Source: a virus. Taken from it: DNA of 27,736 nt. Positions 8,884 through 27,736 of this stretch are shown here, piece after piece. A program made the position numbers and the translations under genes. Every line of letters starts with the position of its first letter. Within the stretch, counting starts at the first letter, position 1. The notes beneath the pieces are model-generated. The model ran no database searches. It worked only from the letters and a program-made list of their open reading frames with translations, and was not told the DNA's origin. The stretch covers positions 1 to 27,736 of IMG/VR virus record IMGVR_UViG_3300028844_002209; one strand, written 5' to 3'.

Positions 8884-10170
8884 TTATCGTTTTTTAGCAT
8901 CTAGTTCTGCTTGTTTCCATGCAAGTGCTGTCTTATTACTCGGGAATGAACCAGTCCAACCGAGTAGTTTTGAATATAGTTTAGTAGTTTTAGCTTCTAA
9001 TGATTTAACATCATCATCGTTTGAAATCTCTACAAAGTCTCTACCGAATACCTTTTGTAGTTCTTTTGAATTCTTTTGTGCATTATCCCAATCTTGTTTT
9101 ACAATTGCAGATGGTAGTTTTCTAGCTCTTTTTGCATTTCTTTTTTGTGCATTGTCCAATGATGCACTAACAAACAACATCTTAGAATCATACCCAAGTT
9201 TATCTAACTGGGTTTTATATGCTTTAACTTTGGATATGTTTGCACTTGTAGTGTCGAATATCATTCCAAGTCTACCACCGATATAGGCATTCATATTCTT
9301 TGTAGTGATATCCTTTGCCCTTGCACGAATTGGGTCAACCTTGTCGAAGTCTGCACCTCTAAGGTCAAGAGACATTCCTGCTTTCTTTAATCCGTTCTCG
9401 AATGCCTTATCTGTATTGACCAGTTTAAGACCAAGAGCTCTTAATGATAACTTATTTACAACTGTCGACTTACCACTTCCAGGCCCACCACTAAAGAAAA
9501 CTGCTTTAAACGTTCCTTGGTCATAGACCCCTTCGTTGATTAAATCTTCAATCATATAGTCGGGTAGTGTGGACTCTACGATACCCATTCCTTTACGGAT
9601 ATCTTTGTATAGTTGTTCTATATCTTTCTTGTTCTTGGTTGGAACACCTTGTGCAAATGCTTTGAAATCACCCTGTTCTGCAAGAGCTCTCAACTTAGAT
9701 GCACTCATTCCACTTAAGTCATCTGCATCGGGGTCTCTCTCCCCTGCTGATACGATTTCAATCTCATCGAATTTGTAATAACCGTGTCTTGCTTTAACTC
9801 CGTTGTACTTCTTAAGTAACATTTCGAATTCTTTGATTCTATCAGAACCAACTACCATCTTGACACGTGTGAACTTTTGTCTTTGTAACTCGTTTGCAAT
9901 TTCAAATACAGTACGTGCTTGTACGTCTGCAACTATCCTACCAAAGAACTTCTTAAGATATCTTACTTTAACCTTGTGGTCTAATGGATTTTTCTTTTTG
10001 TCGTTTGAGTGAGAAGAGAAAAGCATAGGTTGATATCCACCACCAGCTTCTTTCTTAAGTTTGTCTACTAACTTTGCATGACCAGTTGTGGGTGGATTGA
10101 ATCTACCGAATGTGAATACCACACCTTTGTCTTTTGCTTCTGTTAGAAATTTTCCGAATGTCTTTTTCAT
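8884..10170 (-). CDS. Bifunctional NMNAT-like nucleotidyltransferase / P-loop kinase
   Basis: Residues 17-160 form a HIGH-superfamily nucleotidyltransferase: GRFNPPTTGH (22-31) is the TxGH nucleotide site and SGMSASKLR (153-161) matches the ISxTxxR-type C-terminal motif. The fold is that of NMN or pantetheine-phosphate adenylyltransferases. Residues 222-400 form a P-loop kinase, with Walker A GGPGSGKST (228-236), VNTDKAF and the Walker B-like strand MIFDTTSA. Together they could act on NAD precursors or on a nucleotide or RNA-end substrate; which one is not shown. The N-terminus MKKTFGKFLTEAKDKG resembles the T4 capsid-targeting sequence, with a good protease site (LTE/A), so the enzyme may be packaged. 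It overlaps the 66-residue gene by ATGA. Confidence 0.85.
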   Translation of the reverse strand: MKKTFGKFLTEAKDKGVVFTFGRFNPPTTGHAKLVDKLKKEAGGGYQPMLFSSHSNDKKKNPLDHKVKVRYLKKFFGRIVADVQARTVFEIANELQRQKFTRVKMVVGSDRIKEFEMLLKKYNGVKARHGYYKFDEIEIVSAGERDPDADDLSGMSASKLRALAEQGDFKAFAQGVPTKNKKDIEQLYKDIRKGMGIVESTLPDYMIEDLINEGVYDQGTFKAVFFSGGPGSGKSTVVNKLSLRALGLKLVNTDKAFENGLKKAGMSLDLRGADFDKVDPIRARAKDITTKNMNAYIGGRLGMIFDTTSANISKVKAYKTQLDKLGYDSKMLFVSASLDNAQKRNAKRARKLPSAIVKQDWDNAQKNSKELQKVFGRDFVEISNDDDVKSLEAKTTKLYSKLLGWTGSFPSNKTALAWKQAELDAKKR

Positions 10171-17598: not shown

Positions 17599-18021
17599 CT
17601 ATTTAGGATAGTTGTGTCTGCGATGTTCCAACTTGGTGTCGTAATCAATCATTGCCTTTTTGATTGCGTCTTCAGCAAGAACAGAACAATGAAGTTTAAT
17701 CGGCGGAAGGTCTAACGCATCAGCGATGTCCTTATCCTTAATTAGTTTAGCTTCTTCGATAGTCTTACCCATCATCATATCAACAAACATGGACGAACTT
17801 GCAATTGCACTTCCACATCCATAGGTTTTAAACTTTACGTCAATGATTCTTTCATCATCGTCCAGTAATAGTTGTAATTGCATTACATCACCACAGGCGG
17901 GTGCGCCTGCAAGACCTGTTGCAACATGTGGGTCGTCTTTGTCTAATCGACCTACGGAATGTTTTTCGGGGTTTGCAAGTACTGCTTCAAATCTTTGAAC
18001 TACTTCTTTTGAGTATGCCAT
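17599..18021 (-). CDS. IscU/NifU-like Fe-S cluster scaffold
   Basis: The three cluster-binding cysteines of IscU are present in their usual setting: GAPACGDVMQLQL (C43, with Asp45), YGCGSAIASSS (C69) and LPPIKLHCSVLAEDA (C112). The 140-residue length and the closing helix (EDAIKKAMIDYD) match IscU. In bacteria IscU assembles 2Fe-2S and 4Fe-4S clusters with IscS and hands them to apo-proteins. Here it sits directly between DNA polymerase and a nuclease, so it could supply a viral Fe-S protein or support host metabolism. No IscS, ferredoxin or chaperone gene is in the window. The start is 8 bases after the polymerase stop. Confidence 0.95.
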   Translation of the reverse strand: MAYSKEVVQRFEAVLANPEKHSVGRLDKDDPHVATGLAGAPACGDVMQLQLLLDDDERIIDVKFKTYGCGSAIASSSMFVDMMMGKTIEEAKLIKDKDIADALDLPPIKLHCSVLAEDAIKKAMIDYDTKLEHRRHNYPK

Positions 18022-23702: not shown

Positions 23703-24704
23703 CTAGAAAAAGCTGTCAAGTGAACCTTTCTCCTCATACTTTCCAGCATGAGGGCCGATAGGATTCTCAGTCTTTCCAGCTCTCCCTTTAGTTGCAACAT
23801 GTTCATCACAATATGCAACACATGATAACCTTACTCCTTCACCAGTGATAGGTGATACACCGTGCAATTCATTTGAATCTGCAATCAGTACGTCTCCATC
23901 ATCTGCTTCAATAGCAATACCATATCTAGGGAAACATAAGTATGCACCCCCAAATTCTCCAATACGGAAGACACACATAGTTGTCATTCCGAACTCTAAA
24001 TCTTTACCATCCAAATGTGCAGACATCTTTGCAGTCCCACCAGTTGAATATTTGTTTGCAGATAACGCTGTCATAGGAGCTCCACCAATATGGTATTTCT
24101 CTTCTATACATTCATCTGCAAATGTTCTTTGCATCTTCCATATCTCGGGAACTGCAGTCTTTAATGCTTGTTCATTTACTTGTGCAATCTGTTGAAGGGT
24201 TTCAAACTTTTCTTTGTTTGCTTTCTTATCCATCCAACCACTTGCCTTAATCATTCCTGTGAATCTGCCACGTTTATACCCGATTAGAACTGAATGAATC
24301 TCATTTGCTTCTGCAATACGATTGAACTCACCGTTCTTCTTTAATGGATAATAACTGTTTGGAGTTCTTAGGACATAGTCTTTACCTTCGATTAATCCTT
24401 TTGCTTTCATTTCTTCGTGGTCGATAGGCCCGGCTGCATTTGCTCTCATTGTAGATGTATCATCTATAGAGAACAAAGTGTCTTTAACTGTTCTATAAGT
24501 TTTACCTTTGTATGCTTTCTTTACTATACATGCAAGTAAAGTTTCCCCCATGAGTGTACCATGAGGTTTGTATATTTTAATAGTATCATCTTCTACACCA
24601 ATGGATGAGATAACAGTGTCATAAGAATCTTCAGTAAGATACTTACCGTTCCATTTCTTAAATGTTTCTTTAAATCCTAAGTCTTTTGTTGCAGTGAATT
24701 CCAT
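23703..24704 (-). CDS. TET/JBP-like 2OG-Fe(II) dioxygenase, predicted 5mC hydroxylase
   Basis: The C-terminal half has the TET/JBP arrangement: SAHLDGKDLE (His230, Asp232, first two iron ligands), FGGAYLCFPRYGIAIEADDG, DVLIADSNELHGVSP (His281, third ligand) and GEGVRLSCVAY (Arg292, binds 2-oxoglutarate). TET/JBP enzymes oxidise the 5-methyl of cytosine or thymine in DNA, and phage TET-like enzymes are known to act on 5mC made by a partner methyltransferase. The N-terminal 150 residues are unrecognised. It overlaps the methyltransferase end by 28 bases, a strong context argument. The C-terminus KGSLDSFF is the same peptide as in the DNA polymerase. Whether it acts on DNA is not proven. Confidence 0.85.
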   Translation of the reverse strand: MEFTATKDLGFKETFKKWNGKYLTEDSYDTVISSIGVEDDTIKIYKPHGTLMGETLLACIVKKAYKGKTYRTVKDTLFSIDDTSTMRANAAGPIDHEEMKAKGLIEGKDYVLRTPNSYYPLKKNGEFNRIAEANEIHSVLIGYKRGRFTGMIKASGWMDKKANKEKFETLQQIAQVNEQALKTAVPEIWKMQRTFADECIEEKYHIGGAPMTALSANKYSTGGTAKMSAHLDGKDLEFGMTTMCVFRIGEFGGAYLCFPRYGIAIEADDGDVLIADSNELHGVSPITGEGVRLSCVAYCDEHVATKGRAGKTENPIGPHAGKYEEKGSLDSFF

Positions 24705-25951
24705 GGTTCTAATATTTGTCCTTTGATGTTTTCAACTAAGTAGTACATACATAATGGTGCTACCATCAATCCAATTCTTGCACCCTTGTCGTTGTAATCA
24801 CCAGTCATTTTATAATCATTTGGTAGAGTCATTAATCTCACCATTTCTTTTGGTGTGTAGATTCTCTTACCACTATGGTGGAAATGATTACCACCCATAA
24901 ATTTTGGTTGACAACCCTGTTCAGTCAATGAGTGAGCTGGTAGATGTTTAGGAACAATTCTTGACATGTAGTAAGAATGTTTTTCATCTTCGGGTTGTAC
25001 GTGTCCGTTCTTAATCTGTTCTTGAAACCAAGGTTTAACAATATGGTCTCCAATAGAAACATATGCTTGATTGTCTCTCTCATGTAGTACAGGAGTAACT
25101 CCACCACATGGGCCACAATCCTTGAACTTCTCATCGGGATGTTGTTCGAAACCATTTACCCAATGTCCCTTTGAAGATTCGTTCATTGCAGTTTCTAGAT
25201 AAGCTGCATCCTTGATGTTCTCTTCATCGGTTTCTAAATCTTGAATTGCATCTTCAATGGATGCAAATTCTTTAACTGGGTCGGGGAAGACTGAAGACAT
25301 ACACATCCAAGGCATTCCAATACCTTCAAGTACATCATCACGTACACCAACCATGAATACTCTTTCTCTTTTTTGTGGAACACCATGTTCATGTCCCTTC
25401 ATGATTTTCCAAGTCACTGAGTATCCTAGTGCTTCAAAATCATTTACCATCTTGTTTAGATGGTCTCTTGCATAGTCCATCGAGAGACCCTTCACGTTCT
25501 CACATACTATAACTTTAGGCATCAACCCTTCGGCAATCCTAATCATTTCCCATGTAAGGTCTTCGATGTTCTGTTGTTTCATACCATATGCCATCTTCTC
25601 TTGGTTCCATCCTTCTTTCTTGGAACCTGCCATAGAAAATGGTGGACAAGGTGGTGACCCATCCATGATATCTAATTCGTATTTTTTAAGTCCAGTCAGC
25701 TCCATGATTCCTTCTGCAGTGACTTCTTTGATGTCTCTACATTCATGAACTGTATTAGGGAAATTTTCTAGGTAGGTGTCGACATGAATCTGTTGAAATT
25801 CATTCATGTATTTTACATCACCACCAGCTAGTTTGTAACCACATGAAGAACCCCCACCACCAGCAAAGAAAGTAATGTAGTTAAACTGTTTACTTTCACT
25901 GTTTCGGTGAAGGTCTTCTAGGTTGTATTGAAAATATTTATTATCACTCAT
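24677..25951 (-). CDS. C5-cytosine DNA methyltransferase
   Basis: Transfers methyl from SAM to C5 of cytosine in DNA. Motif I is FFAGGGGSSCGYKLAGG (29-45), motif IV GSPPCPPFSMAG with catalytic Cys102, motif VI VIVCENVKG, motif VIII VPQKRERVFMVG, motif IX RIYTPKEMVRLMTLP and motif X GARIGLMVAPLCMYYLVENI. All are intact. The 424-residue length and a long region between VIII and IX (about 140 residues) give a target recognition domain whose sequence specificity cannot be told. I prefer ATG 25951 (MSDNKYFQYN), behind GGAG with good spacing; ATG 25954 is directly upstream. No restriction enzyme gene is near. It is driven by a consensus promoter and coupled to the TET-like gene, pointing to base modification of phage DNA rather than restriction. 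Confidence 0.95.
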   Translation of the reverse strand: MSDNKYFQYNLEDLHRNSESKQFNYITFFAGGGGSSCGYKLAGGDVKYMNEFQQIHVDTYLENFPNTVHECRDIKEVTAEGIMELTGLKKYELDIMDGSPPCPPFSMAGSKKEGWNQEKMAYGMKQQNIEDLTWEMIRIAEGLMPKVIVCENVKGLSMDYARDHLNKMVNDFEALGYSVTWKIMKGHEHGVPQKRERVFMVGVRDDVLEGIGMPWMCMSSVFPDPVKEFASIEDAIQDLETDEENIKDAAYLETAMNESSKGHWVNGFEQHPDEKFKDCGPCGGVTPVLHERDNQAYVSIGDHIVKPWFQEQIKNGHVQPEDEKHSYYMSRIVPKHLPAHSLTEQGCQPKFMGGNHFHHSGKRIYTPKEMVRLMTLPNDYKMTGDYNDKGARIGLMVAPLCMYYLVENIKGQILEPWNSLQQKT

Positions 25952-25960
25952 CATGACTCC

Positions 25961-25998: not shown

Positions 25999-26526
25999 TT
26001 AAAGATTTTCTAATACATTTTCGGGTGTTGAAACCTCGTAAGGGTCGGACTCAGCATTATCAGTGTAACCGTCTTCGATAAAGATTTTTTCAATTACTCC
26101 ATCGTTAACTACAGCTGCATATCTCCAAGACCTGTATCCGAAACCAAGATTTGATTTAGAACATTCTGCACCAATTAAGTGAGTGAACTCACCGTTACCA
26201 TCGGGAAGAGGGTAAACATTTTTGATACCTAATGATTCGAACCATGAGTTCATTACGAATGTATCGTTAACTGATACACAGTAAATCTCATCAATACCTT
26301 TCTCTTGGAACTTCTCAAAGTTCTCATCAAAGCCAGGCAGTTGTTGAGTTGAACATGTTGGTGTAAATGCGCCAGGCAATCCAAATACAATCACTCTTTT
26401 ACCAGCAAACTGTTGTTGGGTGTCTAGTGTTACAAATTCACCACCGACTCTCTGTGGTAGGATTACTTCGGGTACTCTAGTTTCCCCTTCAATAATTTCT
26501 AACCCCATTGTTACTTCTTCTGTCAT
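25999..26526 (-). CDS. Peroxiredoxin (Prx5/hybrid type)
   Basis: Reduces hydrogen peroxide or organic peroxides. GLPGAFTPTCSTQQLPGF holds the peroxidatic Cys58 with Thr55, and SWRYAAVV supplies the conserved Arg side. Further Cys are at EIYCVSVND and GAECSKS. The 175-residue length and the VPEVILPQRVGGEFVTLD opening fit Prx5 enzymes. There is no glutaredoxin fusion or signal peptide, so the enzyme is cytoplasmic and would use host thiols. ATG 26526 follows GGAG with a long spacer; ATG 26508 is an alternative. Phage peroxiredoxins may guard the host during infection. Confidence 0.92.
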   Translation of the reverse strand: MTEEVTMGLEIIEGETRVPEVILPQRVGGEFVTLDTQQQFAGKRVIVFGLPGAFTPTCSTQQLPGFDENFEKFQEKGIDEIYCVSVNDTFVMNSWFESLGIKNVYPLPDGNGEFTHLIGAECSKSNLGFGYRSWRYAAVVNDGVIEKIFIEDGYTDNAESDPYEVSTPENVLENL

Positions 26527-26597: not shown

Positions 26598-27026
26598 TTA
26601 TGAAATTTTGATTTCTTGAGGTTTATCTTCTTCGGGTATTACTCTCTCAAGTGATACGCTTAGAATACCATCCTTCATGTCTGCACCTTTAACGACAATG
26701 TCGTCTGCTAGTGTAAACTTTCTAGTGAAATTTCTAGAAGAAAGTCCTTGATGGACGAACTCCCTTGCATTTCCTTGGTCTTTCTGATTACCCATAACGA
26801 TAAGAACTTCTTTCTCTTTTGAGATTGAAATTTCTTTCTTATTGAATCCAGCAACTGCAAGTTCAATTTGGAAGTTTTCCTCATCTACTTTTACAATATT
26901 GTAAGGTGGATAGTTAGAATTAGATTGTACATCTGCACGTTCTAATAGTTGAAGAGTTCTGTCGAACCCGATTGCGAATGGAAATTCTGTTGTGAATTTT
27001 CCGAAGACATCATTGAAATGTGTCAT
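26598..27026 (-). CDS. Hsp20/alpha-crystallin small heat shock protein
   Basis: Holds unfolding proteins in a refoldable state. The protein opens MTHFNDVFGKFTTEF, followed by YPPYNIVKVDEENFQIELAV (IbpA-like), an alpha-crystallin domain over residues 40-125 with FTRKFTLADDIVVKGADMKD and GILSVSLERVIP, and an IKIS tail providing the IxI-type motif. It is 142 residues, similar to bacterial IbpA. Hsp20 is one of the most widely shared genes of marine T4-like phages. ATG 27026 follows the strong ribosome site AAGGAG. Upstream are both a sigma70-type promoter and TATAAATA. Confidence 0.95.
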   Translation of the reverse strand: MTHFNDVFGKFTTEFPFAIGFDRTLQLLERADVQSNSNYPPYNIVKVDEENFQIELAVAGFNKKEISISKEKEVLIVMGNQKDQGNAREFVHQGLSSRNFTRKFTLADDIVVKGADMKDGILSVSLERVIPEEDKPQEIKIS

Positions 27027-27134: not shown

Positions 27135-27147
27135 GGGGTTTTTAGAA
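27121..27147. repeat. 8-bp inverted repeat over the end of the DUF5658-like gene
   Basis: ttctaaaa (27121-27128) and ttttagaa (27140-27147) are perfect inverse complements around 11 bases and cover the stop codon of the DUF5658-like gene. The AT-rich stem makes it a weak terminator at most. It overlaps the -35 region of the hsp20 promoter. Confidence 0.3.
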
Positions 27148-27501
27148 TTTTCTGCATCTTTCTTTTGCATCTTTCAATATATCAAGATTACTTGCAATCA
27201 CCATAGACATTAAGAAGTTCATCTGATTCATAACGTATGGTGTTACCCTCTCATTTTTAATATCTGAGTTTATAGCAGGAATGAGAACTGCAATCTTAAA
27301 TGCAAACATTTGTGGAACTGAAGGTGATTCACCAAGAAAAGGATTTAGTTCTTTGACACAACTGTATTTGAGACCACGATATGTGGTATAGATATCTGCA
27401 AATTGAAGTGATATGAATGCAGCCCACTGAAGATTACTAGGTTGTTCAGATAGTGTAAACCACGACTGGTTCTGATTTTCCTTTAACTGTAATTGAATCA
27501 A
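27142..27501 (-). CDS. Small DUF5658-like membrane protein
   Basis: The conserved core is LQWAAFISLQFADIYTTYRG, then LKYSCVKELNPFLGESPSVP: hydrophobic helix, D-x-YTT, then E-x-NP. This is the pattern of DUF5658 membrane proteins. A second helix follows (FAFKIAVLIP) and a third (NFLMSMVIASNLDIL). The start is uncertain. No ATG suits; TTG 27501 gives 119 residues and overlaps the cyclase by 56 bases, while ATG 27570 gives a longer overlap. The frame stays open to 27735, but that part lies over the cyclase in another frame, so the signal-peptide-like beginning there is fortuitous. The function is unknown. Confidence 0.6.
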   Translation of the reverse strand: MIQLQLKENQNQSWFTLSEQPSNLQWAAFISLQFADIYTTYRGLKYSCVKELNPFLGESPSVPQMFAFKIAVLIPAINSDIKNERVTPYVMNQMNFLMSMVIASNLDILKDAKERCRKF

Positions 27502-27736
27502 CTTTTGTGAATGTTCTGTTTGGACATTGGAGATAAGTTTCTTGTCCCAACAACAAGTCCACCCCATCATAATTTCTTGTTTGTCCCTCAAGTCTAGCAC
27601 CGAGGTTGACGGCATCTCCAATGACGGAATAGTCAAATCTAAGTTCTGACCCCATGTTTCCAACGATGCACTCACCAGTATTAATCCCAATACCCACGTT
27701 AATGGGTGGAAGATTAAGCGGTTTGAGTTCTTCATT
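27446..27736 (-). CDS. Class III adenylate/guanylate cyclase, C-terminal part
   Basis: Only the last 96 residues are in the window; the gene starts beyond 27736. They read VGIGINTGECIVGNMGSELR, then FDYSVIGDAVNLGARLEGQT, then a closing strand pair (TFTKVDSITVKGKSEPVVVY). The NLGARLE segment holds the catalytic Asn and Arg, and GNMGSxxRFDYSVIGDAVN is the typical bacterial cyclase core. The sequence is closest in style to CHASE2-type or stand-alone bacterial adenylate cyclases. The product (cAMP or cGMP) and any N-terminal sensor domain cannot be told from this part. A nucleotide cyclase in a T4-like phage is unusual. Confidence 0.85.
   Translation of the reverse strand, partial: NEELKPLNLPPINVGIGINTGECIVGNMGSELRFDYSVIGDAVNLGARLEGQTRNYDGVDLLLGQETYLQCPNRTFTKVDSITVKGKSEPVVVYTI

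Follow-up and report, generated by a model that had tools for sequence, protein, structure and literature searches.

The window analyzed here, a 27,736-base linear virus fragment recorded in IMG/VR, ends inside a gene. The open reading frame at its right edge (27736-27446, minus strand) takes up the last 291 bases and contains 96 codons with a stop at 27446; it has no start codon within the window, and the protein is cut by the end of the contig. We found that the translated fragment matched the Pfam cyclase profile PF00211 (33.7 bits against a cut-off of 21.9 bits, E 3.4e-8, profile positions 99-176 of 183) and aligned with solved class III cyclases over their C-terminal halves, the best match being CyaB of Pseudomonas aeruginosa (3r5g, E 2.7e-13). 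Both matches are far above chance, which rules out a chance reading frame at the window end, and they bear out the original observation of a nucleotide cyclase domain whose N-terminal half is missing. The fragment corresponds to residues 517-612 of the intact protein of a close relative (L003:8453-10288), such that the N-terminal ~516 amino acids lie past the contig end, and it is 55% identical to the cyclase of phage HTVC008M (AGE60353.1). It is near certain that these are the C-terminal 96 amino acids of a phage receptor adenylate cyclase of the CHASE2-class III type.

The catalytic segment VNLGARLEG, which had been described as intact, does contain both the transition-state Asn (27607-27605) and the Arg (27595-27593), residues 44 and 48 of the fragment (together 27593-27607, minus strand). 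Just before it, the Ser codon in the motif FDYSVIGD (27626-27628, minus strand) aligns with the second of the two positions that determine base specificity, where solved adenylate cyclase CyaB (3r5g) and a bacterial light-activated cyclase carry Thr.

Three genes follow on the same strand: directly downstream, a small membrane protein with an uncertain start codon (27142-27447) whose match to DUF5658, at 23.9 bits, falls slightly below the Pfam cut-off; then a small heat-shock protein of the Hsp20 family (26598-27026); and then a peroxiredoxin-like protein with a Redoxin domain (25999-26526), in a gene order shared with the relatives L002 and L003. Hsp20 follows the cyclase in 60, and the peroxiredoxin in 41, of the 68 viral loci whose downstream sequence reaches 1.5 kb or more. 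Because this synteny recurs in dozens of independent viral contigs, we conclude that the contig end is phage DNA, as first proposed, and reject a chimera with host DNA. G+C content is even along the window as far as it was computed, to 27.0 kb.

Several other genes of the window are of interest in their own right. A C5 cytosine methylase (PF00145) adjoins a Tet/JBP-type oxygenase (PF12851) at 23703-25954, and the two are likely a cytosine hypermodification pair of the phage. A NifU/IscU-like iron-sulfur scaffold, rare in isolate phages (8 records), is encoded at 17599-18021, and a fusion-like reading frame at 8884-10170 combines a nucleotidyltransferase-type start (FGRFNPPTTGH) with a kinase-like P-loop (GGPGSGKST). 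The DNA polymerase gp43 is nearest to those of cyanophages (47%), UvsX is nearest to that of phage Melnitz (70%), and the helicase is ~60% identical to both; matches to isolate phages at the DNA level are short. Given these differing affinities and short matches, we claim no host for the window.

Scanning IMG/VR with the cyclase returned at least 593 matching loci, and the nearest among the matches listed were 97-98% identical. Together with the isolates HTVC008M and Melnitz and a published account of the module described below (PMC9599517), this number revises the initial impression that few phage examples exist. Intact relatives are ~612 amino acids long and consist of a membrane helix, a periplasmic CHASE2 domain, three further helices and a cytoplasmic cyclase domain; the L003 protein scored 103.7 bits for CHASE2 (PF05226) and 58.4 bits for PF00211 in Pfam, and the HTVC008M cyclase scored 134 bits for PF05226. 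An AlphaFold2 model of an intact relative (mean pLDDT 82) has the same topology, with one transmembrane helix, CHASE2, three transmembrane helices and the cyclase, and a Foldseek search against the PDB with this model gave solved class III cyclases as top matches over its cyclase part.

The N-terminal half that the window lacks, on whose integrity the predicted activity had been made to depend, is intact in nearly all relatives, including the metal-binding residues, the specificity Lys and the sensor domain. The two metal Asp residues are kept in 71 of 72 and in all 79 of the relatives covering each site, and among the sequences covering the respective positions Lys479 is kept in 78/78, the Ser in 82/83 (Ser553), the Asn in 82/83 and the Arg in 83/83. 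The exceptions are few: Tyr replaces one metal Asp in L033, and in the Melnitz cyclase Ser is changed to Asp and Asn to Ser. The Melnitz protein (L083:6465-8516) is extended at its C terminus, and its catalytic domain has diverged strongly, as though another one had been swapped in; this diverged active site implies that catalytic activity may be dispensable in some phages. The catalytic domain is under strong purifying selection, with dN/dS of 0.06-0.11 in pairs of intact relatives, compared with 0.13-0.40 for CHASE2; the window fragment compared with its relatives gave 0.09-0.16.

Adenylate cyclases are recognized by a base-recognition pair of Lys with Asp, Thr or Ser, and guanylate cyclases by Glu with Cys or Gly; in guanylyl cyclase 2w01 the aligned positions are Glu and Gly. 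Since the Lys/Ser pair of the phage proteins is similar to the Lys/Thr combination found in class IIIb adenylate cyclases, ATP is the predicted substrate, and the type IIIb-like domain, acting as a homodimer, should convert ATP to cAMP. The solved class IIIb enzymes P. aeruginosa CyaB (3r5g) and Spirulina CyaC (1wc0) share the catalytic fold and residues, although they have other sensor domains and carry Thr, not Ser, at the second specificity position.

The genes upstream of the cyclase sit past the contig end, and the setting in which it occurs is therefore invisible in the window. In all 42 viral loci that extend 5.5 kb or more before the cyclase, however, the upstream genes on its strand include csgF, csgG, FecR and two genes with curlin repeats. 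The order is csgF, csgG, curlin repeat, FecR, curlin repeat, a small membrane protein and, last, the cyclase. The 98%-identical relatives L002 and L003 are among these 42 loci, and the isolates HTVC008M (on SAR11) and Melnitz (on OM43) share this arrangement, with annotated cyclases. A type VIII secretion (T8SS, curli)/FecR/adenylate cyclase module has been reported in pelagiphage podo- and myoviruses by Wittmers et al. (2022; PMC9599517), who stressed that FecR and the cyclase are absent from bacterial curli operons. The window cyclase adds another member to this module. It shares with that of HTVC008M, a marine T4-like myophage, both the gene itself and its position after csgF-csgG-curlin-FecR-curlin. 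In the published podoviruses the genes preceding csgF were called histidine kinases, whereas here these genes encode two short membrane or coiled proteins of one family (phrog_18771; L003:3642-4216) in which Pfam found no histidine-kinase domain. One of the short membrane proteins has a weak match to a holin family (phrog_4898, E 7e-5). In Melnitz (QZI95054.1), a phage of the OM43 methylophages, a CHASE2-cyclase likewise closes an equivalent curli module, although with its own diverged catalytic domain and C-terminal extension.

Among cellular proteins, the closest to the phage enzymes are CHASE2 cyclases of alphaproteobacteria (31-35% identity), and we compared their surroundings with those of the phage genes. 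They have the same domain order and frequently a FecR neighbor, like Sinorhizobium meliloti CyaD1, CyaD2 and CyaK and their Bradyrhizobium relatives, but the other neighbors differ, being type I secretion genes, giant RTX/cadherin proteins and cAMP receptors. No csgG, csgF or phage-type curlin was recognizable in 80 bacterial loci with flanks of up to ~9 kb. Among the 64 of these loci with enough upstream sequence, FecR or type I secretion genes lay within 1 kb in 35, in a sample weighted toward Bradyrhizobium and counted without a background control. FecR in these bacteria commonly makes up the beginning of a giant RTX/cadherin protein encoded directly upstream of the cyclase, and the gene for S. 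meliloti CyaD1, a CHASE2 cyclase, lies near clr, which encodes the cAMP receptor, and near the FecR gene smc02177 (PMC5498481). These neighborhoods indicate that bacteria, too, combine FecR with a CHASE2 cyclase and a surface protein that is secreted; in the phages, the secretion route paired with FecR and the cyclase is curli. In one bacterial locus (L141:7216-11736) two cNMP-binding proteins flank the cyclase, one of them fused to HlyD; L143 and L156 have similar neighbors, which suggests direct control of secretion by cAMP. These three loci come from streamlined marine alphaproteobacteria, and HlyD is a type I secretion adaptor.

We looked for a cAMP receptor through the cNMP-binding domain PF00027. 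None of eight phage records, HTVC008M and Melnitz among them, gave a match; several of these records are fragments, and on this basis we dismissed a phage-borne receptor. We also looked at SAR11 as one plausible host group. An exact match to the SAR11-441R probe, by which SAR11 genomes were recognized, was present at a 16S gene in two genomes, and the family of one of these comprised 98 genomes. PF00027 occurred in seven of the 98: once in an FNR-like, Cys-rich protein of 245 amino acids, five times as a weak match in reading frames of ~870 amino acids, and once in a large, atypical mixed MAG. PF00211 occurred in two of the 98, both times on contigs (L170 and L171) that look viral, one having a FecR-cyclase pair followed by short genes and a nuclease, and the other, L171 from a SAR11 MAG, a DUF5658-like gene adjoining the cyclase. 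Both contigs are probably phage sequence binned into MAGs, and we set aside the idea of native class III cyclases in these 98 SAR11-family genomes. Our literature search on cAMP signaling in SAR11 returned nothing useful. Given that canonical receptors are absent from the eight phage records and almost absent from the 98 genomes, we name no output for cAMP.

Taken together, we favor, at a probability of roughly 60%, an envelope-sensing adenylate cyclase that belongs to a secreted-fiber module and directs a cAMP signal at envelope functions of the host or phage. During infection the module would supply curlin-repeat proteins and a CsgG/CsgF pore in the outer membrane. How secretion or the envelope is faring would be sensed by FecR in the periplasm together with the CHASE2 domain, which we infer to be a sensor pair; the cyclase would turn this information into a cytoplasmic pulse of its inferred product, cAMP; and the pulse may then adjust envelope-linked functions of the host or the phage. 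A more far-reaching version, which we consider speculative and rather unlikely, is that the phage brings a full envelope-to-cytoplasm cAMP signal to hosts with neither a class III cyclase nor the usual receptor. In that case cAMP would act through an undescribed receptor belonging to the phage or to its host. The secretion module itself might be what it acts on; the fusion of a cNMP-binding domain with HlyD next to the bacterial cyclase in L141 hints at such an action for type I secretion.

Alternatively, catalysis could be secondary, with the CHASE2 and membrane part of the protein serving as a scaffold that controls a pore or the timing of lysis. The authors of the Melnitz paper, who do not mention the cyclase, proposed that the curli pore helps to time lysis (PMC9004378), and both the weak holin match before csgF and the altered Asn of the Melnitz cyclase are consistent with such a role. 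However, no part of the protein is under tighter constraint than the catalytic domain, and the metal, Lys, Asn and Arg residues are retained, so we regard a mainly structural function as rather unlikely. It was also suggested originally that phage-made cAMP or cGMP could alter host catabolite control; this would mean raised host levels of the nucleotide acting through a CRP-type regulator. The active site does appear competent for ATP, and PF00027 proteins are present in 216 of 288 genomes of other alphaproteobacteria; against this, the cyclase is tied to curli and FecR genes in every viral relative with enough upstream sequence, and CRP-type control of carbon use is improbable if the host is SAR11, since so few genomes of that family have a PF00027 protein, most of them weak or atypical matches. 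With that limitation to SAR11, the suggestion found no support, and we judge it unlikely.

The other role put forward at the outset, interference with cyclic-nucleotide-based defense, also lacks support. We took it to mean the making of a nucleotide that competes in a system such as Pycsar, and we consider it very improbable. PADLOC models for PycC do match the domain, as would be expected of any class III cyclase, but the protein is a CHASE2 membrane receptor, not a soluble sponge or phosphodiesterase, and its constant association with curli and FecR does not fit; we therefore rejected an anti-defense role. With PF00211 in the SAR11 family confined to the two phage-like contigs, Pycsar-type targets are not evident in those 98 genomes, although other hosts are possible. 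Nor did we encounter the Pycsar arrangement itself, a cyclase adjoining a toxic effector with a cNMP-binding domain, in the eight phage records, which lack PF00027.

Bacterial CHASE2 cyclases adjoin giant secreted proteins fused to FecR, type I secretion genes and sometimes cNMP-binding/HlyD proteins, which suggests that the phage cyclase may have come along with surface-protein secretion, and may serve that rather than carbon control. Marine T4-like phages of this group, with isolates on SAR11 and OM43, keep a receptor cyclase under strong selection, while SAR11 genomes appear to be without the usual cAMP machinery. This raises a testable question: what effect phage-made cAMP would have in a cell that has no known receptor for it.
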